In this document: in pieces, positions 1 to 55,041 of the stretch
Position numbering within the stretch: the stretch's first letter is position 1
How the letters are laid out: the number at the start of each line of letters is the position of its first letter
Assembly (NCBI RefSeq): GCF_011290685.1
Contig: NZ_JAANYN010000001.1
Location: 293,325 to 357,324, forward strand
Direction of reading: 5' to 3'
DNA: 64,000 bases
From: Cyclobacterium plantarum
GTDB taxonomy: Bacteria > Bacteroidota > Bacteroidia > Cytophagales > Cyclobacteriaceae
Program-made: the position numbers and the translations under genes
Notes under the pieces: generated by a model
The model's input: the letters and a program-made list of their open reading frames with translations, nothing else
Told to the model about the DNA's origin: nothing
The model's database searches: none

Positions 1-981
1 AGATTCATAAAGGAAAATTACCTGGATTGGTTGAACGTTCCCAATATCAGTAAACCTGTAATGTCTCATCAGGTAATGAAGGAACATGTTTTTCCAAAGA
101 TCAAGGAAGGTAAGCCTTTATTTTTTATCGTGATAGACAACCTGCGCCTCGATCAATGGGAAATGATTGAAAATCAACTGGGAGATTATTTTACAGTCAA
201 AGAGGACAAAACCTATTATAGTATTTTGCCTACCACTACTGCGTTTTCCAGAAATGCTTTGTTCAGCGGATTGATGCCAATGGATATGGCTAAATACCAT
301 CCTGATCTTTGGGAAGGAGAGGAAACGGATGAAGGGAAAAACAATAACGAAGCGGAATTTTTGAAAGTGAACCTGAAAAAAAACAGGCTTTCTATTCGTT
401 CAAGCTATCATAAAATATTGCAGACCAATCAGGGAAAAGCCGTTTTGGATCAATTTCCCAATTTGATGAAAAACGAGCTGAATGTCTTGGTTTATAATTT
501 CGTGGATATGATGTCACATGCCCGAACAGATATGAAGATGATCCGTGAACTTGCCCCTGATGAGTCGGCCTATCGCTCTCTTACCAATAGTTGGTTTTTA
601 CACAGCTCCCTATTTGAACTATTTAAAAAAATCAGTTCGGCGGGTGCGGAGGTAATCGTAACCACTGACCACGGTACCAAGCGGGTAAACAAACCCTATA
701 AAATTGTAGGTGATCGAAATGTGACCACAAACCTGAGGTACAAACAAGGCAAAAACCTTAATTTTGAATCAGGAAAAGTATTTGAAATCAAAAAACCCGG
801 TGAAGCCAAACTCCCCCAACTGAACATCTCTTCCAGTTATGTGTTCGCTGTGGAAGATTATTTCTTTGCTTACCCCAACAACTACAATTATTATGTGAAT
901 TTCTACAAAGATACCTTTCAGCATGGGGGGGTTTCTTTAGAAGAAATGATTATTCCAATAGTGCATTTACAGCCAAAATAA
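1..981 (+). CDS. porX: PorX-like T9SS response regulator, C-terminal PglZ part (5' truncated by window edge)
   Basis: The reading frame is open from base 1, so this is the 3' part of a longer gene; about 326 codons are visible and full-length PorX proteins are about 520 residues. The visible part is a PglZ domain of the alkaline-phosphatase superfamily: a metal-ligand strand FFIVIDNLRLDQW, a TTTAFSRNALFSG segment holding the predicted Thr ligand, and a TTDHGTKR motif near the end. In characterised PorX the missing N-terminus is a receiver plus helical domain, and the protein links the PorY kinase to type IX secretion genes and cleaves oligonucleotides through its PglZ domain. A TTG at base 31 is not the start, because the frame continues upstream with PorX-like sequence. 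It heads a run with tsaE and ald. Confidence 0.85.
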   Translation, partial: RFIKENYLDWLNVPNISKPVMSHQVMKEHVFPKIKEGKPLFFIVIDNLRLDQWEMIENQLGDYFTVKEDKTYYSILPTTTAFSRNALFSGLMPMDMAKYHPDLWEGEETDEGKNNNEAEFLKVNLKKNRLSIRSSYHKILQTNQGKAVLDQFPNLMKNELNVLVYNFVDMMSHARTDMKMIRELAPDESAYRSLTNSWFLHSSLFELFKKISSAGAEVIVTTDHGTKRVNKPYKIVGDRNVTTNLRYKQGKNLNFESGKVFEIKKPGEAKLPQLNISSSYVFAVEDYFFAYPNNYNYYVNFYKDTFQHGGVSLEEMIIPIVHLQPK

Positions 982-2645: not shown

Positions 2646-3110
2646 TCAGGAAAGCAGATTTTGTCTGAGGAGAAACTCCAGTTGATCATTGGCTTTCAGT
2701 AAACTATCTGTAAGTTGTTTGTTCTCCCTTCTCAGGGAGTACACTTCAAAAGCATTTTTCACTACCGTTCTTAGGTAATCTTCTTCCCAGGGCTTGGTCA
2801 GGTAATGGTAGACCTTACCTTTATTGATGGCATCTATCACAGCCTGAATATCGGTATATCCGGTAAGTAAAATCCTCATCGGATCAGGGTGCATGGGGAT
2901 GATAGACTCCAAAAAATCCACTCCATTTTCCTTGGGCATCCTTTGATCTGTAATAATGATGTCTATATCTTCCTGGAGCAAAATATCCCTTCCCTCGTCA
3001 GCAGATTCAGCCATAAATATTTTGTAATCCCTCCTAAAAGTAGCTTTAAAAGCTTTAAGGTTATTGACTTCATCATCTACATAAAGTATCCTAATCTTAT
3101 CTTTTTCCAT
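2646..3110 (-). CDS. Single-domain response regulator (receiver with C-terminal coiled coil)
   Basis: A 154-residue protein made of one receiver domain and a short helical tail without DNA-binding domain. The acidic pair D12/D13, phosphoacceptor D55 (ITDQRMP), T83 and K106 of the receiver active site are all present. The receiver is strikingly like the receiver of the gene at 7308-8396 (shared DQRMP, NPDP/HPDP, RILLTGY, VIDAIN and KPW blocks), so the two are paralogues. It is transcribed away from the ThiF/GNAT/kinase operon with 261 bp between start codons. Inferred role: an alternative phosphoacceptor for the kinases of that operon, acting by protein-protein contact. Receivers of this ILLTGY/KPW type often precede HD-GYP or kinase output domains, which are absent here. 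Confidence 0.85.
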   Translation of the reverse strand: MEKDKIRILYVDDEVNNLKAFKATFRRDYKIFMAESADEGRDILLQEDIDIIITDQRMPKENGVDFLESIIPMHPDPMRILLTGYTDIQAVIDAINKGKVYHYLTKPWEEDYLRTVVKNAFEVYSLRRENKQLTDSLLKANDQLEFLLRQNLLS

Positions 3111-3303
3111 GCCTTAAATATCGTAATAACCTATTGATTTGTTAAGAATAAGAAATTGAATTTTAATTTTAAATAAAATATCGTTCTTTTTCAATTAATA
3201 TTCATTAGTTTAATCGTATTATATTTATATTCAAAAGTTTATTTTATAAATTAAAGAATTAAACCTTAAATACAAAAAAAAATATAATAAATTAATTCTG
3301 TAT

Positions 3304-3338
3304 TTTTGATTGTTTATTACTACAAAAATATAACTTTA
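3304..3338 (+). promoter_or_regulatory. Possible Bacteroidota-type promoter of the ThiF/GNAT/kinase operon
   Basis: In the very AT-rich divergent gap (3111-3371) a TTTTG (3304-3308) is followed 22 nt later by TAACTTTA (3331-3338), close to the Bacteroidota -33 TTTG / -7 TAnnTTTG consensus, about 34 nt before the ATG at 3372. The match is imperfect. Nothing else was recognised in this gap beyond long A/T runs. Confidence 0.3.
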
Positions 3339-3371
3339 CCCATATTATAACCTTTTTTAGGCAGTAAAATT

Positions 3372-4481
3372 ATGGAAAACTCAAATAAAAAATCTGAGTT
3401 TATGCATCCCTACAAACCCTTAATCTTTTCTCCTTATGTTCAGGAGGATATGAATACAATGGGAAAATTGAAGGACACAGGTAAAGTTCTGTTTTTCGAC
3501 ACTTTTGAACTTCAATTGACGGAGCTCATTAAAATGGAAAACCCAAAAAGAAAACTATCTTTAGAGGAGTTGTCGGAAAAAAAAGCAGATTATTACACCG
3601 CATCTGAAAAAAATGCCTCGGAAAATGGCAATTGGGTCTATTACCCCTGGAGAAATACCGTGGTCAGAATTTTAGAGGAAAAAGATTTCATCAGGTTGCG
3701 AACAGTCAGGAACAAGTACAAGATCAACGGGAAGGAACAGGAGCAGCTACAACAACAGGTGATTGGGGTGATCGGGCTTTCTGTTGGTCAAAGCGTTGCA
3801 TTGAGTTTGGCCATGGAAAGGTGCTTTGGCGAGCTTAGGATAGCAGATTTTGACACGCTGGACTTAAGCAACATGAATAGAATAAGAACGGGTTTATTTA
3901 ACCTTGGTCTAAAGAAAACCTGGATTGTTGCCAGAGAAATTGCGGAAATTGATCCCTATCTGAAAGTAACACTGTACGATGAAGGTACTACTGAGGCCAA
4001 CATTGATGACTTCCTGACGAAAGGGGGCAAGATGGATCTATTGATTGAGGAATGCGATAGTTTACCAATAAAAATTTTAAGCAGGATAAAGGCGAGAAGC
4101 TCAGGTATTCCTGTGATGATGGATACCAGTGATAGGGGTATGATGGATATTGAAAGGTTTGATCTGGAGCCTGAAAGACCCATTTTCCATGGATTGTTGT
4201 CGGACTATGGAGAAGAAAGGGAATTATTGAAGATGCTTCCGGAAAAGGGAAGAGAAATAATGATTTCACTATTGGAGTTTGAAAAATTGTCTGATAGGGT
4301 TAAATACAGTTTTGGGGAACTAGGTAAAACCATAACCTCATGGCCACAGTTGGCATCCTCTGTTTTACTGGGGGGGGCAGCCTGTTGCCATTACGCCAGA
4401 ATGTTACTTCTAGGCCAGGAGGTAAAATCCGGCAGATTTTATGTTGATTTGGACAAGATACTCAATTTGAATGAAAGTTAG
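3372..4481 (+). CDS. ThiF/E1-like adenylyltransferase (stand-alone), first gene of signalling-like operon
   Basis: A 369-residue protein with a ThiF/MoeB-type nucleotide-binding fold preceded by about 125 residues of unassigned sequence. Seen: the dinucleotide-binding loop VIGVIGLSVGQSVALSLA (about 130-147), the acidic strand ADFDTLDLSNMNR (158-170) that matches the Asp, Asn and Arg ATP-binding positions of MoeB, and EECDS around C228. E1-like enzymes adenylate a C-terminal or small-molecule carboxylate; the substrate here is unknown. No ubiquitin-like partner, CxxC zinc motifs or rhodanese domain is encoded with it. It resembles proteins annotated as the Rv1355c family but lacks the nitroreductase-like half. 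Its end overlaps the next gene by 11 nt. Product function is inference; fold assignment is fairly secure. Confidence 0.75.
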   Translation: MENSNKKSEFMHPYKPLIFSPYVQEDMNTMGKLKDTGKVLFFDTFELQLTELIKMENPKRKLSLEELSEKKADYYTASEKNASENGNWVYYPWRNTVVRILEEKDFIRLRTVRNKYKINGKEQEQLQQQVIGVIGLSVGQSVALSLAMERCFGELRIADFDTLDLSNMNRIRTGLFNLGLKKTWIVAREIAEIDPYLKVTLYDEGTTEANIDDFLTKGGKMDLLIEECDSLPIKILSRIKARSSGIPVMMDTSDRGMMDIERFDLEPERPIFHGLLSDYGEERELLKMLPEKGREIMISLLEFEKLSDRVKYSFGELGKTITSWPQLASSVLLGGAACCHYARMLLLGQEVKSGRFYVDLDKILNLNES

Positions 4482-5172
4482 AGTTAGGATAGTTAGGGCT
4501 ATAGATGATATTGATGCCACAGAAAAGTATATTTTTGGCCACCATAAGGTATTGGAATCTTATGGTATTACGAAAGTGACTTCTGCGGACCGTTCCTGGG
4601 CTCTTAATCCCCATGTATACCTGATACTCTTTGAGTCAGTAGAGGATTTGAGAATTTTAGGTGGAGGAAGAATACAGCTCAGAACAGAAAATTTCCCCCT
4701 TCCTTTTGAGTTGGCCATAAAAGAAATAGATCCGAAAATTACGGATTACATGGCTGATTTTAAGGATCTTGAAGTAGCTGAATATTGTGGGCTTTGGAAC
4801 AGCAGGGAAGTAGCAGGTTATGGGATAGGGAGTATTTATTTGGTACGGGTAGGTATAGCTATTCTGCCCCAGTTGAATTTAAAAAAGCTTTTTGGATTAA
4901 GTTCCCCGGTGACATTGAGCATTTCCAAGAGTGTAGGATACCAGGTAATTTCGGTATTAGGGGATAATGGTTCGTTTTATTATCCCAAAGAAGGGCTGAT
5001 CGCCACTGCTTTGGAAATAAATGATATCAACGAACTCTCACATGCTCAATTGGCTGAAAGGGACTATATTTTTGAGCTAAGGAAAAAAATCAATTTCAAC
5101 ACCGTAGAAAGTGGTCCTAAAGGAGAAATGGAATTGCAATTTGAACTTCAAATACCTAAACCTGATAAATGA
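4471..5172 (+). CDS. GNAT/autoinducer-synthase-like protein (putative N-acyltransferase)
   Basis: A 233-residue protein with no motif I can name with certainty. Its layout recalls the acyl-homoserine-lactone synthase / FeeM N-acyl-amino-acid synthase branch of the GNAT superfamily: a tryptophan-containing N-terminal part, a strand ending in LGGGRIQLR (63-71, compare the G-x-RL/P strand of these enzymes), a LPFELAI segment, then VAEYCGLWNSREV (102-114), similar in position to the E-x-SR motif, and a helix-rich C-terminal half with GYQVISVLGDNGSFYYPKEG. It overlaps the ThiF-like gene (11 nt) and the kinase gene (ATGA), so all are translated together. If correct, it would transfer an acyl group to an amine, perhaps on the molecule activated by the upstream E1-like enzyme. 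The fold call is tentative. Confidence 0.45.
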   Translation: MKVRVRIVRAIDDIDATEKYIFGHHKVLESYGITKVTSADRSWALNPHVYLILFESVEDLRILGGGRIQLRTENFPLPFELAIKEIDPKITDYMADFKDLEVAEYCGLWNSREVAGYGIGSIYLVRVGIAILPQLNLKKLFGLSSPVTLSISKSVGYQVISVLGDNGSFYYPKEGLIATALEINDINELSHAQLAERDYIFELRKKINFNTVESGPKGEMELQFELQIPKPDK

Positions 5173-7301
5173 AAAACTTTTATATGTATTTAAGAAGCAT
5201 AGGCTTGTCCTTGTTTTTGATTTTATTTGTCACCCTGCCCATCATTTACTATTTAGGTATTTTCAGTCAGGATGAAGGTCTGAGGTTTGAAAAATATGCC
5301 TATTTTGTTTCTGATAAAAACCTTGGAACCGAAACTTTGAAATTGGATCAATTTCAATATGAAGCCTATCAAAAAATTGATTTGGGTGTAATTGATGAGA
5401 ATTTGTATGTCAAAGTTGATTTGGAGGATTTAAATGGGTTGGTAAAGGACAGCCTTTACATTGTGGAAATAAGCAACCCTTCTTTCAGGGAAGTAGAACT
5501 GATGAGATATGATGGTTCAGGGAATTTGGTTTCCAAACAAACTTCCGGAACAGCTTTTTCCAAAACCAACCCATTAAAGAACCCCAATCCTTTTTTCAGG
5601 CTCCGGATGGAGGAAGCCTACAGCTCCATATTGGTTTTCAAAATCAGGTCGAATGTTCCCCTGGAATTTGATGCTGCCATATCTCCCTCTGATTCCTTTT
5701 TTCAAAACTACAGCCTGAGACTGATAATAATCAGTTCTTATTTCGGCATAATGATTGCCTTGTTCCTGTACAATTTCATACTCTATTTCTCGGTTAAGGA
5801 CAAAGTATATCTTTTTTACTGCTTTTATATTCTTTTCATCGCTTTGGCCCAACTTTCCCTTTCGGGGTATTCTTACTTTTTCCTGATGGAAAACGCTTAC
5901 CTATATGAAGTGAGCATCATTGGCTTTACCACGCTTTCAAGCATTTTTGTGATTCCTTTCATCCAGTTATTTTTAAAAACCAAAGTATACGTTCCCAAAT
6001 ACAATCAATGGCTTTACCTTATACCCGTATCCTATTTTGTTACCCTGGTATTCAGGATATCCGGTTTTGTGGAGTTGAGTTATTCCTTGACAGATTTGAA
6101 TGGAATGATTTTAGCGATTTGCTTTTTCACGATAGGAATCATAGCGGCGAGAAAAGGCTACAGATCGGCTTATTTTTTCCTTTTGGCATGGAGTTTTTTA
6201 TTGTTTGGGCTAGTGGTCTACATATTGCACAATCAGCGGATTATTGATCTGGGATCCTATGCCAACTTCCCTCTTTTGGCGGGCACGGCTATTGAAGCCT
6301 TATTGCTTTCCTTTGCTTTGGCCGACAAGATCAATATATTGAAAAAAGAAAAGGAAAAGGAGCAATTGGATAAACTGGAAGCCCTTAAGGAAAATGAAAG
6401 GCTGATAAAGGAGCAGAATTTATATTTGGAAGATATGGTCAAATCAAGGACAGAGGAGCTTGAAATGACATTGAAAAATCTTCAAAATACACAAACTCAA
6501 CTTGTCAACCAGGAAAAAATGGCTTCATTGGGTCAGTTGACTGCCGGGATTGCACACGAAATCAATAACCCCATTAATTTTGTCAGCTCCAATATCTCAC
6601 CACTTAAGAGAGACCTTAAGGATATACGTGAATTGATGGAAGTATATAGGGAGAAGGGGAAAGAGGAATTTTCTGAAGAAAGTAAATCCGAAATCTCCGA
6701 TTTGGAAGAAGACATAGAGATTGATTATTTATTGGAGGAAGTTGAGCAATTGCTTAATGGAATGGAGGATGGTGCCAAGAGGACAGTAGAGATCGTCCGC
6801 GGTCTGAAATTATTTTCAAGGGTAGATGAACAAGATGTCAAGGAGGTTGATATTCATGATGGGATAGACAGCACACTGATCTTGCTCAATAGTACCATGT
6901 CCGGGAAAATTAAATTAACCAAAAATTATGGATCCATTCCGCAGGTTGAATGCCTTGCAGGGAAAATGAATCAGGTATTCATGAATATCATCAGCAATGC
7001 CATTCATGCACTTCTGGATCACCCAATGGAGGGAAGAGAACCTGAATTGACCATCACTACCTTTTTTCAAAATGAAAGGGTGGTAATTAAGATTGGAGAC
7101 AATGGACCGGGCATGCCGGCACAAGTTCGGGAAAAGATTTTTGAACCTTTTTTTACAACCAAACCGGTTGGTAAAGGTACTGGGTTGGGATTATCCATTG
7201 TTTATACGATTATTGAAAACCATAAAGGGAATATTAAAGTTGACTCGGAAGATAAAATGGGTACTACTTTTACCATTGAATTACCGACCAATCAAAATTA
7301 A
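5169..7301 (+). CDS. 7TMR-DISM sensor histidine kinase
   Basis: A 710-residue membrane kinase. An N-terminal hydrophobic helix (about 10-30) leads to a periplasmic 7TMR-DISMED2-type domain (about 30-180), then seven hydrophobic helices (about 185-385), a coiled coil rich in E and K (about 388-440), and a kinase core. The phosphoacceptor is H463 in [12 protein letters not shown], followed by an HATPase with N-box [22 protein letters not shown] and [10 protein letters not shown]. The insertion between the DHp helices is acidic. Family knowledge: DISMED2 domains are thought to bind small ligands, often carbohydrates, and the 7TM module passes the signal inward. It starts inside the previous gene (ATGA) and ends 6 nt before the receiver-kinase gene, so it probably phosphorylates that partner and perhaps the lone regulator at 2646-3110. 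Confidence 0.9.
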
Positions 7302-7307
7302 CAGCTA

Positions 7308-8396
7308 ATGACAAAGAAAATCAATGTGCTGTACATAGATGATGAGGATAACAACCTCAATTCTTTTAAGGCTGCATTGCGTAGGGATTTTAAGGTTCAT
7401 ACTGCTTTGGATGCAGCCGAAGGATTGAAGATTGCTGAAACCAGAGAATTCGAAGTTGTTATTGCCGACCAGAGAATGCCAGGCATTACCGGGGTGGAGT
7501 TTTTTGAAAGGTTAGTGAAAATTAACCCAGACCCCATCCGTATTTTGCTTACAGGGTATTCTGATATTTCGAGTGTAATTGATGCTATCAACAGGGGAGA
7601 GGTTTATCGTTTTATTGATAAGCCATGGAACCTTGAGCAGATCAAAAATGCCGTCATCAATGCAGCAGAAATATACTATGCGAGAAAGGAACTTAAAGAA
7701 AAAAATGAGCGGCTGGAAAAACTGCATTCTGAAATGAACCAGTTTGTTTACAGTTTATCTCATGAACTAAGAGGGCCCTTAATGAGTATTTCAGGCATAT
7801 CGAAACTCGCTAAAATGGAAGTTAATGAGCCTGGAATCGTAGAGTATTTTGAGATGATTGATTCGGCGACTCTCAAACTCGATGATTTTATTTATAAAAT
7901 GCTTGATTTTTACAGGTCCACAAAAATTGAAAACAAAATAGTTTCCATCGATTTTAAGGGGATTTTTGATCAATTGATGAAGGATTATCAACTAAAATGG
8001 GATTTGAGTGAAATTGAGCTGAGTTTTGATATTTCCCAGGAAGAACCCTTTTATTCTGATGAGTCTAAAATCCGTGTAATCCTCAATAACCTTTTTAGTA
8101 ATGCGTATAAATTTCAGAAAGAAAATGGCAATAGGTGGATCCACATATGCATAAAAGTCAGCCGAAATAAGGCTTATTTGGAGCTAGCGGATAATGGTAT
8201 TGGAATAGAGGAAAAACATCAGTCGGATGTGTTTAATCTTTTTCACAGGGCTACTCAAAGGAATGTGGGCTCGGGACTTGGTCTGTACATGGTCAAAGAA
8301 TCGGTAGAACAACTGAAGGGGAATGTAGTATTGAAATCAGATGTAGGGAAAGGGACTTCTGTACAGGTGCACCTGCCTGATTTGAATAATAATTAA
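7308..8396 (+). CDS. Receiver-histidine kinase hybrid (REC-HisKA-HATPase)
   Basis: A 362-residue cytoplasmic protein with an N-terminal receiver (phosphoacceptor D54 in IADQRMPG, with conserved Thr and KPW), a coiled-coil linker (about 125-145), a HisKA domain with H152 in SHELRGPL, and an HATPase with NNLFSNAYKFQ, LADNGIGIEE and GSGLGLYMV. The order REC first, kinase second suggests that phosphorylation of the receiver by the upstream 7TMR-DISM kinase controls its own kinase, with an unknown final acceptor. The receiver is a close paralogue of the lone regulator at 2646-3110, a good candidate for that acceptor. Last gene of the four-gene operon; no clear terminator follows, only a T-rich stretch near 8400. 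Confidence 0.9.
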   Translation: MTKKINVLYIDDEDNNLNSFKAALRRDFKVHTALDAAEGLKIAETREFEVVIADQRMPGITGVEFFERLVKINPDPIRILLTGYSDISSVIDAINRGEVYRFIDKPWNLEQIKNAVINAAEIYYARKELKEKNERLEKLHSEMNQFVYSLSHELRGPLMSISGISKLAKMEVNEPGIVEYFEMIDSATLKLDDFIYKMLDFYRSTKIENKIVSIDFKGIFDQLMKDYQLKWDLSEIELSFDISQEEPFYSDESKIRVILNNLFSNAYKFQKENGNRWIHICIKVSRNKAYLELADNGIGIEEKHQSDVFNLFHRATQRNVGSGLGLYMVKESVEQLKGNVVLKSDVGKGTSVQVHLPDLNNN

Positions 8397-35572: not shown

Positions 35573-36994
35573 TTAATAAGTTTCCATTTCCGGATGAAAG
35601 GTATTCAGGTAATGGATTATTCCTCCTTTTAAATTATACAAATTGCTAAATCCAAATTGCTCTTCCAGTGCCCGGATAGCCTTTTCACTTCTGCCTCCAA
35701 CCTTGCAAAGAACAACTACCTTTTTATCCCTTTCGATTTTCTCACCTTGAGAAATAATAGTACCCAAGGGGATCAATTCTCCTCCAATATTCGCAATCTC
35801 GAATTCGTGAGGCTCACGTACATCGATCAATTGGAAGGCTTCCTCTCTTTCCTGGAGCTGCCTGAATTCCTCGGCCGAAATTTCCTTGATTTTGGATTCT
35901 ATTTTGCCTACACTGCAAAATTCCTCATAATCAATCAACTCTTTGATGCTTGGGTTTTCCCCATTTAATGGATTGCTCTTTTTTCTCCCTACTTTAAAAG
36001 TCCGGGATTGAAAACTTAAGGCATCGAATGTGTATAACTTGCCGCTGAGCACCTCACCAATGCCTGTAATGACTTTCAATACTTCTAATGCCTGCAGACT
36101 GCCGATGATTCCGGGCAATACGCCCAATACCCCACCTTCTGCACAACTCGGCACCAGCCCGGGAGGCGGAGGGGTTTCATACAGGTCCCGGTAGTTTGGT
36201 CCGAACACCCCATTTGCCTGATAATTGAAAACTGATACCTGCCCTTCAAACTGGTAAATGGAAGCATAAACATTGGTTTTATTTGACAGGACACAGGCAT
36301 CATTCACCAGGTATCTGGTAGGGAAATTATCCGTGCCATCTGCTACAAGGTCGTAGTCTCCAATTAGCCGCATGGCGTTTTCTTTGGTGAACCTTTCATT
36401 ATATACATTTATCTGGATATAAGGGTTGATCTCCAGAAGCCTTTTTTTAGCAGCCTCAACTTTCGGTATGCCTAATTCGGAAACGCCAAAAATTACTTGC
36501 CGGTGGAGGTTACTGTCTTCTACTACATCAAAATCCACGATACCCAGCGTACCCACTCCTGCTGCTGCCAGATAGAGAAGCAGTGGACTACCAAGGCCTC
36601 CGGAACCAATGACCAGTACCCTGGCTTTTTTTAGTTTTTTTTGGGCTTCCAATCCGAATTCCGGGATGATGATATGGCGATTGTACCTGGCCAATTCTTC
36701 CTTACTGAAGCTAATATCGTCTGTACCCCCTGCTATTGCAGGAACAATGCTTACCACACTTCCGCTTTTGATTTTGGAATGCTCCATTTCCAGATTCTGA
36801 ATATCCTCCTCGTCAATAAAAATATTTATAAAGGAAGGTATATTCCCATCCGGCGTGTATAAATACCTTTTTAGCTCAGGAAATTTTTTCGAAAGCTCGT
36901 CCAACATTTCCTTTATCGTTTCTGCTTCAATTTCTGTTTTGGCTGCATTTGCAGTGAACTTACGTAAAGGGGTAGGGATGAATATTGTTGCCAT
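35573..36994 (-). CDS. Ubiquitin-like/MoaD-ThiF(E1)-rhodanese fusion protein
   Basis: A 473-residue three-domain protein, starting at MATIFIPTPLRKF (a frame extension of 12 codons was rejected because it would overlap the upstream stop). Residues 1-90: MoaD/CysO-like beta-grasp domain ending in AIAGG (G89-G90), not at a free C-terminus. Residues 95-340: MoeB/ThiF E1 domain with VLVIGSGGLGSPLLLYLAAAGVG (127-149), DFDVVEDSNLHRQ (154-166) and C284 in PSCAEGGVLG. Residues 370-473: rhodanese with active C430 in VVVLCKVGGRSEKA. The CxxC zinc pairs of MoeB are missing. Such domains adenylate the Gly-Gly tail and load sulfur on it for cysteine, thiamine, molybdopterin or thio-sugar synthesis. It begins 4 nt after a JAMM peptidase gene. 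Confidence 0.88.
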   Translation of the reverse strand: MATIFIPTPLRKFTANAAKTEIEAETIKEMLDELSKKFPELKRYLYTPDGNIPSFINIFIDEEDIQNLEMEHSKIKSGSVVSIVPAIAGGTDDISFSKEELARYNRHIIIPEFGLEAQKKLKKARVLVIGSGGLGSPLLLYLAAAGVGTLGIVDFDVVEDSNLHRQVIFGVSELGIPKVEAAKKRLLEINPYIQINVYNERFTKENAMRLIGDYDLVADGTDNFPTRYLVNDACVLSNKTNVYASIYQFEGQVSVFNYQANGVFGPNYRDLYETPPPPGLVPSCAEGGVLGVLPGIIGSLQALEVLKVITGIGEVLSGKLYTFDALSFQSRTFKVGRKKSNPLNGENPSIKELIDYEEFCSVGKIESKIKEISAEEFRQLQEREEAFQLIDVREPHEFEIANIGGELIPLGTIISQGEKIERDKKVVVLCKVGGRSEKAIRALEEQFGFSNLYNLKGGIIHYLNTFHPEMETY

Positions 36995-36998
36995 AATT

Positions 36999-37418
36999 TT
37001 ATTCGGTAATAATGTGAAATTTTTCTTCAATAAATTGATTGGTATCGTTCAATCGCCAGGATTTTATGTCTGAAAAGCGAAGGTTATTCAAGGAAATAAT
37101 TACATAAGATACATTCGGGAAGGCTGAAAGGAGGTCAGTTTCAGATGGAATAGCAGGCCAATCCAGATGCGTGTGGTAAATACCTATCATTTGAGTTTGA
37201 GTTTTCATGGCCAAAGCTTCCGCTTGCAAATAATCCTTTGGATGAATAAGATAATGTCGATCCCTGTTTTGGTCACTGACATTTTTTACGGGTATATAAT
37301 TTAAGATATTATTTTTATTTCTGCTAGTTTTTCCCAACAAAAACCCGCAGGATTCCTCCGGAACGGTTTCGACCTCCTGTACCAAACTAGCGACTAAAGA
37401 TGCTGCAATACAAATCAT
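36999..37418 (-). CDS. JAMM/MPN+ metallopeptidase (Mov34/Mec+-like)
   Basis: A 139-residue zinc isopeptidase-type protein. The JAMM site is complete: E22 in VPEESCGFLLG, H82 and H84 in IYHTHLD, and S92/D95 in IPSETDLL. Bacterial relatives such as Mec+ cut behind the Gly-Gly of ubiquitin-like sulfur carriers, releasing cysteine; others process carrier precursors. Start at the ATG 37418; the frame reaches a TTG 3 codons earlier, immediately next to the stop of the upstream SDR gene. With the ubiquitin-like/E1/rhodanese fusion starting 4 nt downstream, an action on that protein is likely: cutting after its internal Gly-Gly or after a Gly-Gly adduct. This is inference from context. Confidence 0.88.
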   Translation of the reverse strand: MICIAASLVASLVQEVETVPEESCGFLLGKTSRNKNNILNYIPVKNVSDQNRDRHYLIHPKDYLQAEALAMKTQTQMIGIYHTHLDWPAIPSETDLLSAFPNVSYVIISLNNLRFSDIKSWRLNDTNQFIEEKFHIITE

Positions 37419-50905: not shown

Positions 50906-51123
50906 GATATACAGGGGTAGGGGTTTTTGAAAGTAATTTAATTTAAAAATTATACGGGTAAATTAGGTGGTTAGTTCTTTTTCAGGCAAGGATAAAAGAG
51001 ACTCAGAGAAAAAAATCTGGTTATTTTAATCAATTACCTTAAAGGAAAACCTCATCTTTTTGATGGGAGCATGTAGCATTTTTGGTCATCACTGCGTCTG
51101 GACAGGGAAATCAATCCCAAGTA

Positions 51124-52383
51124 ATGATGAACATGCGACTCAATCTGACTTTAGCCCTTATTGCTTTATTTTTGTTTGGCTCTTGTGATTGGGGAGGCAC
51201 AGAGGATGAATTGGTAAGCCCTAACCTCCGGGCTTTGCAGGCTCATGAGCAGGAAATGGTCCTATCCAGTTCCCGATTCGCCATGGACCTTTTTCATCAG
51301 TTTCAAAAAAAGGAGGTACCCAATCAGTTTTACAGTCCCTACAGCATCCATCAGGCCCTTTCCATGGCCATGAATGGCAACGAAGGAGAGGTTTTGGAAG
51401 AGTTTGTCCGGGTACTGAGGTATGAAGGGATGGGCCTGGAAGAGGCGAATGAAGCAGCACAATCCCTAACCAAATTTTTACTGGAGCTGGATCCCAAAGT
51501 CAGGCTGTCCATTGCCAATGCCATTTGGTACAAGCAGGAATGGGAAGTCAATCCGGATTTTGAAGAAACCGTAAGAAACAGCTTTGGTGCCGAAGTGGGC
51601 GGACTGGACATGGCCAATCCCCAATCTGTAAATGTGATCAATAATTGGATTGAACAAAACACGGAAGGCCTGATCAAAGACATGTTGGATGCCATTCCGC
51701 CCAATGCAGCTATGTACCTGGTCAATGCCATCTACTTCAAGGCGGATTGGAAGTACCGCTTCAATGCCTCCAATACACGGGAAGCACCTTTTTATGTCAG
51801 CCCCGGGAATGAAGTGGCCGTTGACATGATGCGAATGGAAGAAGCAGCATCGCTGAGGTATTTCAGCGATGGCGGACTGGAATATCTCGAAATACCTTAC
51901 AGCACCGGACAGTATAATATGGGCGTGATCATTTCAGATGATTTTGCCCTGGATGAAAAGTTACAGGGCTTTTCCTTTGAAGACCTGGAATACTGGCGGG
52001 AAAATGCGAATGAAGCCAATTTTATTCTGCAGATGCCCAAATTTAAGCTGCGGTACAAGATGGATAAAATGAATGAAGACCTGATGGCAATGGGCCTGGA
52101 AAAGCCCTTTCATCCGAGTCCCATGAACTTTACCAAACTCTTTGCCCATCCCACAGAACCCATGTACATCAGCAGGGTCATCCATGATGCGCTGATCGAA
52201 GTGGATGAAAGGGGAAGCGAGGCCGCAGCAGCCACCATCGTGGAAGTGAGTTACACTTCTGTAGGACCCCATCAGCCCAGGGTATTCGCCTTGGACAAAC
52301 CCTTTGTTTTCTTAATCCAGGACAAGCACAGCGGAGCCATTCTTTTTATGGGAAAACTGAGTGATCCTTCCTTGTTGGATTAA
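51124..52383 (+). CDS. Serpin family lipoprotein (protease inhibitor), copy 1
   Basis: A 419-residue serpin; start at the ATG 51124 (a second ATG follows 3 codons later), rejecting a frame extension of 14 codons. The lipobox LFGSC gives an outer-membrane lipoprotein. Serpin landmarks: FYSPYSIHQALSMAMNGNEGEVLEEF (helix B/C), NAIWYKQEW, the breach-region YLVNAIYFKADWKYRF, and hinge EVDERGSEAAAATIVEVSY. The GSEAAAAT hinge is of the inhibitory kind. Counting from the hinge puts the P1-P1' bond at Thr-Ser (SYT/S); this is only a prediction. It has a near-paralogue at 53797-55041. Role: trapping serine or cysteine proteases at the cell surface. Confidence 0.93.
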   Translation: MMNMRLNLTLALIALFLFGSCDWGGTEDELVSPNLRALQAHEQEMVLSSSRFAMDLFHQFQKKEVPNQFYSPYSIHQALSMAMNGNEGEVLEEFVRVLRYEGMGLEEANEAAQSLTKFLLELDPKVRLSIANAIWYKQEWEVNPDFEETVRNSFGAEVGGLDMANPQSVNVINNWIEQNTEGLIKDMLDAIPPNAAMYLVNAIYFKADWKYRFNASNTREAPFYVSPGNEVAVDMMRMEEAASLRYFSDGGLEYLEIPYSTGQYNMGVIISDDFALDEKLQGFSFEDLEYWRENANEANFILQMPKFKLRYKMDKMNEDLMAMGLEKPFHPSPMNFTKLFAHPTEPMYISRVIHDALIEVDERGSEAAAATIVEVSYTSVGPHQPRVFALDKPFVFLIQDKHSGAILFMGKLSDPSLLD

Positions 52384-53796: not shown

Positions 53797-55041
53797 ATGA
53801 AATCGACACAATGCTATCTTTTTGTTTCTCTTTGTTGCTTGTTCTGGTCCTGTAATGGTTGGAGTGGAAAGGACGAACCGTTGGAGCCCAATATCCGGAC
53901 ACTCCAAATGGCTGAGCATTCTCTGGTAAACAGCAGCTCTTCTTTTGCAATGGATCTCTTTAGCCAGCTACAAACCCAGGAAGCACCCAACCAGTTTTTC
54001 AGCCCTTACAGCGTTCACCTCGCACTTGCCATGGCCATGAATGGAAATGAGGGGGAGACTTTAGAGCAATTCAGGCAGGTTCTCCATTTTGAGGGTATGG
54101 ATATAGAAGAGGCAAACGAAGCGGCCGGAACCCTTACCCGATTTTTGATGGAACTGGATCCAAAGGTCCGTTTATCCATCGCCAATGCCATTTGGTACAA
54201 GCAAGGCTATACCCTGGATGAAGGTTTTGCCAGTAGTCTTCGTGAATCCTATGGGGCCGAATTGGCTTCCCTGGACATGGCCAATCCTCAGGCAGCCGAC
54301 ATCATCAATCGGTGGATTGAAACGAATACGGAAGGACTGATCAAGGATATGTTGGATCAGGTCCCGGCCAGTGCGGTCATGTACCTGGTCAATGCCATCT
54401 ACTTCAAGGCAGACTGGAAGTACCGATTCGATGAGAGTCAAACCAAAAAAGCTCCTTTCACCACCTCCGATGGGGCTGAGGTGCAGGTCGATATGATGCA
54501 GTTGGCTGAGGCCACAACCCTGAAATTCCACACGGAAGGTGGTTTGGACTACCTGGAAATCCCATACAGCACCGGGCAGTATAGTCTTGGGATTTTGACC
54601 TCGGATGAAGGATTGCAGGAAAAGCTGGAGGGACTGGATCTGGAGGTGTTGGAGCAGTTCCGGGAAGAGGCCAGGGAAGTGAATCTGCTACTGCACATGC
54701 CGAAGTTCAAAATGCGCTATAAAGTAGATAATCTGAAAAATGACCTGATAGACATGGGGCTTACACTTCCTTTTCAAAGTCACCCAGGTAATTTTACCCG
54801 TTTGTTTGCCAATGCTACCGGTCCTTTGAAAATTAGCCGGGTAATCCATGAGGCCTTGATTGAAGTAGATGAAAAAGGAAGTGAGGCAGCCGCTGCTACT
54901 ATTGTAGAAATCAGAGAAACAAGTCTCCCATCTTACTCAGAATATAAGCTGAATAAGCCTTTTGTCTTCTTTATTCAGGAAAAACACAGCGGTGCCATTC
55001 TTTTTATGGGAAAATTGGGAGACCCATCATTATTGGATTGA
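53797..55041 (+). CDS. Serpin family lipoprotein (protease inhibitor), copy 2
   Basis: A 414-residue paralogue of the serpin at 51124-52383, probably a tandem duplicate. Signal MKSTQCYLFVSLCCLFWSC gives a lipobox (FWSC). The same landmarks are present: FFSPYSVHLALAMAMNGNEGETLEQF, NAIWYKQGY, YLVNAIYFKADWKYRF and the inhibitory hinge EVDEKGSEAAAATIVEIRE. The two proteins are near identical in the core (for example MYLVNAIYFKADWKYRF and HSGAILFMGKL) but differ in the signal peptide and just after the hinge (EVSYTSVGPHQP against EIRETSLPSYSE), where target protease specificity is set. Same Thr-Ser at the predicted P1-P1'. Fully intact. Confidence 0.93.
   Translation: MKSTQCYLFVSLCCLFWSCNGWSGKDEPLEPNIRTLQMAEHSLVNSSSSFAMDLFSQLQTQEAPNQFFSPYSVHLALAMAMNGNEGETLEQFRQVLHFEGMDIEEANEAAGTLTRFLMELDPKVRLSIANAIWYKQGYTLDEGFASSLRESYGAELASLDMANPQAADIINRWIETNTEGLIKDMLDQVPASAVMYLVNAIYFKADWKYRFDESQTKKAPFTTSDGAEVQVDMMQLAEATTLKFHTEGGLDYLEIPYSTGQYSLGILTSDEGLQEKLEGLDLEVLEQFREEAREVNLLLHMPKFKMRYKVDNLKNDLIDMGLTLPFQSHPGNFTRLFANATGPLKISRVIHEALIEVDEKGSEAAAATIVEIRETSLPSYSEYKLNKPFVFFIQEKHSGAILFMGKLGDPSLLD

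Follow-up and report, generated by a model that had tools for sequence, protein, structure and literature searches.

Does the membrane sensor kinase of a four-gene operon in Cyclobacterium plantarum respond to a small molecule made by the two enzymes encoded directly ahead of it? The operon lies in a 64,000-nucleotide stretch of contig NZ_JAANYN010000001.1 (assembly GCF_011290685.1, positions 293,325 to 357,324), referred to here as the window. A preliminary description, made from the DNA letters and their open reading frames (ORFs), had offered two inferences, namely that the enzymes make an acylated or adenylate-activated small molecule that the kinase reads, or that the kinase controls the output of the pair. 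Having computed genes, folds, conserved sites, co-inheritance, and co-replacement, we favor the former by way of the co-replacement of sensor and synthase: the genes probably constitute a self-contained small-molecule signaling operon, in which the enzymes would make an acyl-oxazolone that their own kinase reads. The signal-making genes and the sensor half of the kinase vary and are replaced together, with the kinase half conserved, as in pherotype-type signaling. The ORF coordinates agree with the operon as it had been described, the four plus-strand genes following one another with an 11-nucleotide overlap, a 4-nucleotide overlap, and a 6-nucleotide gap, and the clustering is not due to chance because the gene set is found together in most of the loci examined. 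A divergent receiver gene, overlooked in the earlier four-gene description, is the fifth member of the unit. The features in window coordinates are:

2646-3110, minus strand: divergent stand-alone receiver (REC) protein, 154 residues, phospho-acceptor Asp55 (Pfam Response_reg, E 8.6e-19)
3111-3371, no strand: divergent intergenic region, presumed promoter region for both transcripts from sequence and gene orientation
3372-4481, plus strand: ThiF/E1-like cyclase of the Rv1355c/TrzS/OxzB family, 369 residues, without a C-terminal flavin-dependent oxidase (Pfam ThiF, E 6e-14; NF005901)
4471-5172, plus strand: FeeM/LuxI-fold N-acyltransferase, presumed N-acyl amino acid synthase, 233 residues (structure match)
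5169-7301, plus strand: 7TMR-DISM sensor histidine kinase, 710 residues, phospho-acceptor His463 (Pfam)
about 5169-6368 and 6369-7301, plus strand: sensor half (residues 1-400) and kinase half of the 7TMR-DISM kinase, with the boundary taken from breakpoints and a correlation profile
7308-8396, plus strand: receiver-histidine kinase (REC-HisKA-HATPase), 362 residues, Asp54 and His152 (Pfam)
4150-6400, plus strand: approximate counterpart of the co-replaced block of relatives (C-terminal part of ThiF, acyltransferase, extracellular domain, seven-transmembrane part), mapped by homology from the Echinicola, Litoribacter, and Algoriphagus breakpoints and the correlation profile

Maker and sensor are exchanged together between close relatives. 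Echinicola salinicaeni (L158), which has no oxidase, and Echinicola L098, which has an oxidase fused to its ThiF protein, occupy the same locus. Between these two the alanine dehydrogenase-like protein (96%), the receiver (96%), the kinase half (93%), the receiver-kinase (93%), and the pyrophosphatase (96%) are highly identical, whereas identity is low for the ThiF protein (68%), the acyltransferase (41%), and the extracellular domain (ECD, 18%) and seven-transmembrane part (7TM, 33%) of the sensor. DNA identity falls from 76-81% to 35-65% at about residue 250 of ThiF and returns to 75-90% at about residue 400 of the kinase. Two loci without the oxidase, L158 and L161 (E. arenosa), are 79% identical in the acyltransferase, 34% in the ECD, 72% in the 7TM, and 83% in the kinase half. 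A similar block was found in Litoribacter (L141 vs. L145) and Algoriphagus (L140 vs. L148), with its left edge at ThiF residues 256-310 or so and its right edge, gradual in Litoribacter, at about kinase residues 360-460. The alanine dehydrogenase-like protein and kinase half are 98% and 94% identical in the Litoribacter pair and 97% and 87% in the Algoriphagus pair, as against 55% and 57% for the acyltransferase, 23% and 29% for the ECD, and 56% and 51% for the 7TM. No swap was seen within the window's own genus.

The same pattern appears across 44 Cyclobacteriaceae loci in partial Mantel tests against acyltransferase distance, with the alanine dehydrogenase-like protein, receiver, and kinase half as controls. 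Correlation was 0.91 for the 7TM, 0.69 for the C-terminal part of ThiF (ThiF-C), 0.59 for the ECD, 0.32 for the N-terminal part of ThiF (ThiF-N), 0.13 (p 0.066) for the receiver-kinase, and -0.01 for the pyrophosphatase. A profile over segments of 40 residues, controlled by the two flanking genes, gave correlations with acyltransferase distance of 0.55-0.71 for kinase residues 1-160, 0.81-0.90 for 161-400, 0.52 for 401-440, and 0.06-0.54 beyond; the ranges were 0.45-0.57 for the receiver, 0.07-0.78 for ThiF (peak at 281-320), and 0.09-0.53 for the receiver-kinase. Nine of the loci carry the oxidase and 35 do not, a character that changes a single time on the trees of the acyltransferase, 7TM, ECD, and ThiF-C and twice on that of ThiF-N. 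It changes six times on the kinase-half tree, four times on those of the receiver-kinase and the receiver, and five times on those of the alanine dehydrogenase-like protein and the pyrophosphatase; the counts come from FastTree trees, on which well-supported alanine dehydrogenase-like branches force at least 3 changes. Among the nine oxidase-bearing loci alone the 7TM still correlates with the acyltransferase (0.82). Speculatively, the tighter linkage of the 7TM than of the ECD would fit binding of a lipid-like ligand by the membrane part, but the ECD may simply be saturated with changes.

How regularly the genes occur together was surveyed mainly in the best 80 of 428 relatives ranked by acyltransferase, of which the closest are Cyclobacterium species (98% identity). 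The linkage of enzymes and kinase on which the preliminary description depended is seen in most loci, with exceptions: in 78/80 the 7TMR kinase lies in the same operon, no more than about 3 kb beyond the acyltransferase on its downstream side. The divergent receiver is found in 79, the receiver-kinase in 74, and the ThiF protein in 78, 38 of them fused ThiF-oxidases as defined by a length above 600 residues. Three loci are incomplete (L163 and L168 end at a contig edge ahead of the kinase, and L182 begins inside the unit), and L154, L159, L160, and L162 (Arthrospiribacter, Mongoliibacter, Indibacter) keep the synthase and the 7TMR kinase without the receiver-kinase. In a second, partly overlapping set of 46 loci, 44 have the acyltransferase, accompanied by the 7TMR kinase in 39, the receiver-kinase in 35, and the divergent receiver in 36. 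Units of this kind occur in many Bacteroidota, and their flanking genes and enzyme order differ between groups. Both surveys took ORFs of at least 80 residues, most flanking ORFs being without annotation. Counting the window's own genome in both, the acyltransferase was matched in 36/148 genomes of the family and in 14/395 of the phylum; one of these 14 matches is weak (G429, 2.2e-4), and no acyltransferase gene was found there. Within the family, a strong acyltransferase match (E < 1e-50) and a strong ThiF match (E < 1e-100) pick out one and the same set of 31 genomes, as counted by hand from the two search listings. A search of plasmid records did not find the acyltransferase. Many units of Dyadobacter and related organisms carry an extra downstream gene of about 130 residues that is absent from the window, and L165:14015-14404 and L109:15226-15636 are annotated as receivers. 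In a draft genome of Cyclobacterium qasimii (L131) the ThiF gene is split over two ORFs.

The partner of the acyltransferase ahead of the kinase may be a ThiF protein alone, a ThiF-oxidase, a methyltransferase (L113, L114), or an FAD_binding_4 oxidase (L192). The methyltransferase in the place of ThiF matches Pfam ICMT (1.5e-19 and 3.5e-18), with PEMT close behind, and the NCBIfam isoprenylcysteine methyltransferase model below its cut-off. A protein of a carboxyl-methyltransferase family at this position agrees with the substrate being the carboxylate of an N-acyl amino acid; judging from family membership, cyclization and methyl esterification would both mask this carboxylate. In the L192 case the sensor has changed along with the enzyme. 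L181 and L183, which have a ThiF-oxidase, are 87% identical to L192 in the acyltransferase and 78% in the kinase half, with 26% in the ECD and 50% in the 7TM; for L199 and L200, also with a ThiF-oxidase, the values are 86%, 81-82%, 32-33%, and 49%. The same-enzyme controls (L181/L183 vs. L199/L200) gave 87%, 79%, 47-48%, and 71%. Of 48 same-enzyme pairs with acyltransferase identity of 80-92%, drawn from 36 fused loci of the 80-locus set, none had a 7TM identity of 50% or less (the lowest being 59) and one had an ECD identity of 33% or less. The L181 record is labelled as a proteobacterial metagenome-assembled genome (Azovibrio), and its acyltransferase is identical to that of L183, from an uncultured Bacteroides metagenome-assembled genome.

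What could the enzymes make? For the 233-residue protein nothing above cut-off was found in searches of Pfam (autoinducer synthase family included), NCBIfam, and PDB sequences. Structure comparison showed that it has the GNAT fold of the FeeM/LuxI type, with FeeM as the best match. This bears out the GNAT-like, autoinducer-synthase-type protein that had been proposed, and the contrary outcome, a non-GNAT fold, was not obtained. From this fold and the neighboring enzyme it is presumed to be a putative N-acyl amino acid synthase.

The ThiF fold suggested earlier for the 369-residue protein likewise held, the structures closest to its model being AclA, ThiF, and MoeB; a literature search on AclA, the best fold match, found no relevant paper, and AclA chemistry was not used. 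NCBIfam NF005901 matches the protein with E 8e-132 over positions 1-340 of a 722-position profile, at 440.9 bits and thus below the cut-off of 476, and the protein ends after the ThiF part with no fused flavin-dependent oxidase domain. On sequence grounds we assign it to the ThiF cyclase domain of the Rv1355c/TrzS/OxzB subfamily. Its actinobacterial relatives on plasmids (13 records) share 40-46% identity with it. Residues D159, D161, N169, R170, K182, and D229, which we take to form the nucleotide site from what is known of E1/ThiF proteins, are invariant in alignments of 14 and 31 rows and are kept in three actinobacterial relatives; D229 is the presumed counterpart of the published Asp217. 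An identity as a ubiquitin-like or defense E1 was considered and rejected, as PADLOC gave only weak E1-E2 matches (best 8.3e-08, 22 listed) compared with E 8e-132 for the Rv1355c family. The genome's other ThiF-family match, at window positions 35573-37030 (minus strand), is a protein of 485 residues that by eye resembles a sulfur-carrier/ThiF/rhodanese fusion. In genome G059 of the same family, L119:9454-10560 encodes a ThiF homologue of 37-38% identity with no acyltransferase or 7TMR kinase adjoining. On Streptomyces plasmids, an oxidase-less Rv1355c-type ThiF gene lies beside a GNAT gene with a MerR regulator upstream (L122:5917-7715), and another ThiF gene adjoins one for beta-ketoacyl-acyl carrier protein synthase 3 (L123:5122-8036).

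A query made from the oxidase half of a fused relative matched 7/7 genomes with the fusion and 0/28 without it, the window's own among the latter; the matched oxidase parts of fused proteins are only 22-35% identical, and a 746-residue protein (L164) went unmatched. A hidden oxidase elsewhere in the genome was thus sought and none was found, though a divergent one could escape this query; two ORFs of the nitroreductase family, 213 and 236 residues long, are present in the genome. A cyclase without an oxidase is chemically sensible because the published pathway builds up the saturated ring under limiting oxygen or with a limiting or impaired oxidase (PMC12856293). With no flavin-oxidase homologue of that type found in the genome, the product of the window's operon would by analogy be a saturated oxazolone, and relatives with a fused oxidase would make the desaturated form.

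The sensor and phosphorelay genes have the domains that had been claimed for them. In the 710-residue protein Pfam finds 7TMR-DISM_7TM (PF07695, 1.4e-36), 7TMR-DISMED2 (PF07696), HisKA (PF00512), and HATPase_c (PF02518), all above cut-off, and in the 362-residue protein Response_reg, HisKA, and HATPase_c. The phospho-acceptors are kept in 44/44 loci (His463 of the kinase, Asp54 and His152 of the receiver-kinase, Asp55 of the divergent receiver). The genome has 39 matches to the operon kinase, itself included, and among the rest the top match spanning the membrane part has 25% identity; operon kinases from outside Cyclobacteriaceae (L164-L203) are 37-46% identical. By these comparisons the operon's 7TMR-DISM kinase is not one of many alike in the genome.

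We infer the substrates, product, ligand binding, and cell-to-cell role of the operon as follows. The 233-residue protein would move an acyl group from acyl-coenzyme A (acyl-CoA) or acyl-acyl carrier protein onto an amino acid. The ThiF protein would then adenylate the carboxylate and close the ring to a 2-alkyl-5(4H)-oxazolone, a step proposed because its homologues TrzS, OxzB, and TyzB have been characterized. The sensor half (ECD and 7TM) of the co-transcribed kinase would recognize the product, which is most likely an N-acyl oxazolone or a related masked N-acyl amino acid; phosphorylation of the kinase would change, and phosphate would pass to the receiver of the REC-kinase, the divergent REC protein, or both. 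Synthase and sensor would form a specificity cassette that relatives exchange while keeping the kinase module, in the manner of quorum-sensing pherotypes. More tentatively, though as a serious candidate, the operon may represent a widespread Bacteroidota family of quorum-sensing systems, in which masked-carboxylate N-acyl amino acids (saturated oxazolone, dehydro-oxazolone, or methyl ester, according to which second enzyme has been swapped in) are read by the 7TM and ECD and the cassettes are exchanged as pherotypes.

Several observations weigh against this proposal. The swapped genes are contiguous, so that one recombination moves all of them, and co-variation alone is no proof of recognition. 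When the flanking genes alone serve as controls, correlation with the acyltransferase extends in the 44 loci to the receiver (0.71), receiver-kinase (0.54), and kinase half (0.46), and in the 35 oxidase-less loci these reach 0.83, 0.59, and 0.64. Among the nine oxidase-bearing loci the ECD (0.36) and ThiF-C (-0.01) are not significant, and the pyrophosphatase control reaches 0.56. The ECD evolves fast even between loci of the same type, as in L158 and L161. The enzyme change with sensor change at L192 is a single evolutionary event, and enzyme type needs 8 changes on a wider acyltransferase tree of 100 rows. Beyond the 31 family genomes strongly matched for both enzymes, a 32nd, G059, has the ThiF homologue (38%) of L119 with neither acyltransferase nor 7TMR kinase beside it. 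Five distant acyltransferase relatives (L104-L108, 26-32% identical) are without this kinase and ThiF; in four of the five an FAD oxidase of some 520 residues occupies the ThiF position, and all five have a divergent kinase-like gene alongside, annotated as a PAS-type histidine kinase in L104, L105, L107, and L108. The four-gene unit has no gene for a DNA-binding output. An hhalign comparison of the acyltransferase alignment with three single proteins encoded beside actinobacterial ThiF genes, each at most a candidate TrzA, found nothing. Oxazolones are also chemically labile (PMC12856293), and the true signal could accordingly be ring-opened.

Would other explanations serve as well? The kinase might sense the operon's product as an internal or envelope metabolite, such as an antimicrobial or a stress lipid, and tune its level or the cell's tolerance of it, with no signal between cells. 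Such product feedback or self-protection, which we regard as rather unlikely, draws on the same co-replacement of enzyme and sensor, but replacement of alleles between sister species is seen more typically in signaling systems and we count it against this explanation. Between the enzymes and the kinase the unit holds no further recurring gene, although the flanking ORFs are mostly unannotated and an exporter could be nearby. On the other side, related N-acyl tyrosines are reportedly antimicrobial, and oxazolones have been tied to stress (PMC12856293). Still less probable, in our estimate, is that the kinase responds to some unrelated external cue and does no more than control the two biosynthetic genes, co-variation arising from linkage. 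The genes are indeed contiguous, and under controls by flanking genes alone the whole operon correlates moderately with the acyltransferase. However, the replaced block ends near the sensor/kinase border (residues 360-460 or so) in three genera, the downstream receiver-kinase hardly follows the acyltransferase (partial r 0.13), and sensor divergence exceeds that of the same-enzyme controls when the tailoring enzyme changes. At the level of sequence, the block ends and the L192 case speak for recognition over mere linkage, and a linkage-only account is weakened accordingly. It would be very surprising if the E1-like protein and the GNAT modified a protein or another macromolecule within signal transduction, by ubiquitin-like conjugation or protein acylation. 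The E1/ThiF fold and the weak matches to bacterial E1-E2 defense models would suit such a role, but the 369-residue protein falls in the Rv1355c branch over its whole ThiF half (E 8e-132) and the best fold match of the 233-residue protein is FeeM; a gene for a conjugation partner was not specifically searched for.

The preliminary description knew of no system with this gene set. As to the enzymes, this must be amended, since the pair resembles OxzAB, TyzACB, and TrzAS (PMC10404671, PMC12856293); as to the partnership with a kinase it still stands, no description having been found. OxzAB of Pseudoalteromonas rubra and TyzACB of Mycobacterium likewise combine an N-acyltransferase with a ThiF cyclase for acyl-oxazolones (PMC10404671), but an oxidase is present in the characterized systems. 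In the TrzAS (Rv1356c/Rv1355c) pathway for tryptazolone, known from mycobacteria and Rhodococcus, a cyclase from the family of the window's ThiF protein adjoins an N-acyltransferase, and the saturated ring intermediate appears when the oxidase is limited (PMC12856293). TrzS, unlike the window's protein, has a fused flavin oxidase, and the M. tuberculosis genes lie beside predicted cyclic di-GMP turnover genes rather than a 7TMR-DISM kinase; the authors remark on these adjacent genes in mycobacteria and on a possible signaling role (PMC12856293). On a Rhodococcus plasmid a GGDEF gene is two genes upstream of an Rv1355c-type gene. The terms "histidine kinase" and "two-component" are absent from the text of either Journal of Biological Chemistry paper on oxazolone pathways. 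NasY-ThiF-nitroreductase clusters for N-acyl dehydrotyrosines share an N-acyl amino acid synthase and ThiF, with a methyltransferase in some, but contain a nitroreductase, and the word "kinase" is absent from the paper (PMC12479983).

The 233-residue protein shares its fold with FeeM and with LuxI-type acyl-homoserine lactone synthases. The operon is not a LuxI/LuxR system, as the partner is a membrane histidine kinase in place of LuxR and there is no Pfam autoinducer-synthase match. A synthase beside a membrane kinase occurs in CqsA/CqsS of Vibrio and ComQXPA of Bacillus, although the chemistry and protein families differ from those of the window; in ComQXPA the signal genes and the sensor half of the kinase vary together. 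The enzyme pair is thus known; its linkage to a 7TMR-DISM kinase and their co-replacement appear to be new, no paper on either having been found in the open-access literature. The physiological role of oxazolones has been called a major unresolved question by the TrzAS authors (PMC12856293). The operon offers the oxazolone pathway a partner in the form of a kinase with a sensor half that varies along with the synthase, and the natural allele pairs of Echinicola, Litoribacter, and Algoriphagus are ready-made tests of specificity. If our proposal is true, Bacteroidota would gain a candidate channel for acyl signals based on a LuxI-type fold, of which a narrow literature search found none described.

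Upstream of the unit in the window are porX (C-terminal part), tsaE, and an alanine dehydrogenase-like gene that falls below its curated cut-off, and downstream is a gene called a pyrophosphatase by eye; these neighbors are found again across the family. Because groups outside the family have different neighbors, a link of the unit to PorX, the type IX secretion response regulator, is unproven; porX, tsaE, and the alanine dehydrogenase-like gene stand beside the unit in the window (31-981) and in L098 (4256-5869). Elsewhere in the window, two similar genes that appear serpin-like by eye lie close together at 51082-52383 and 53797-55041.

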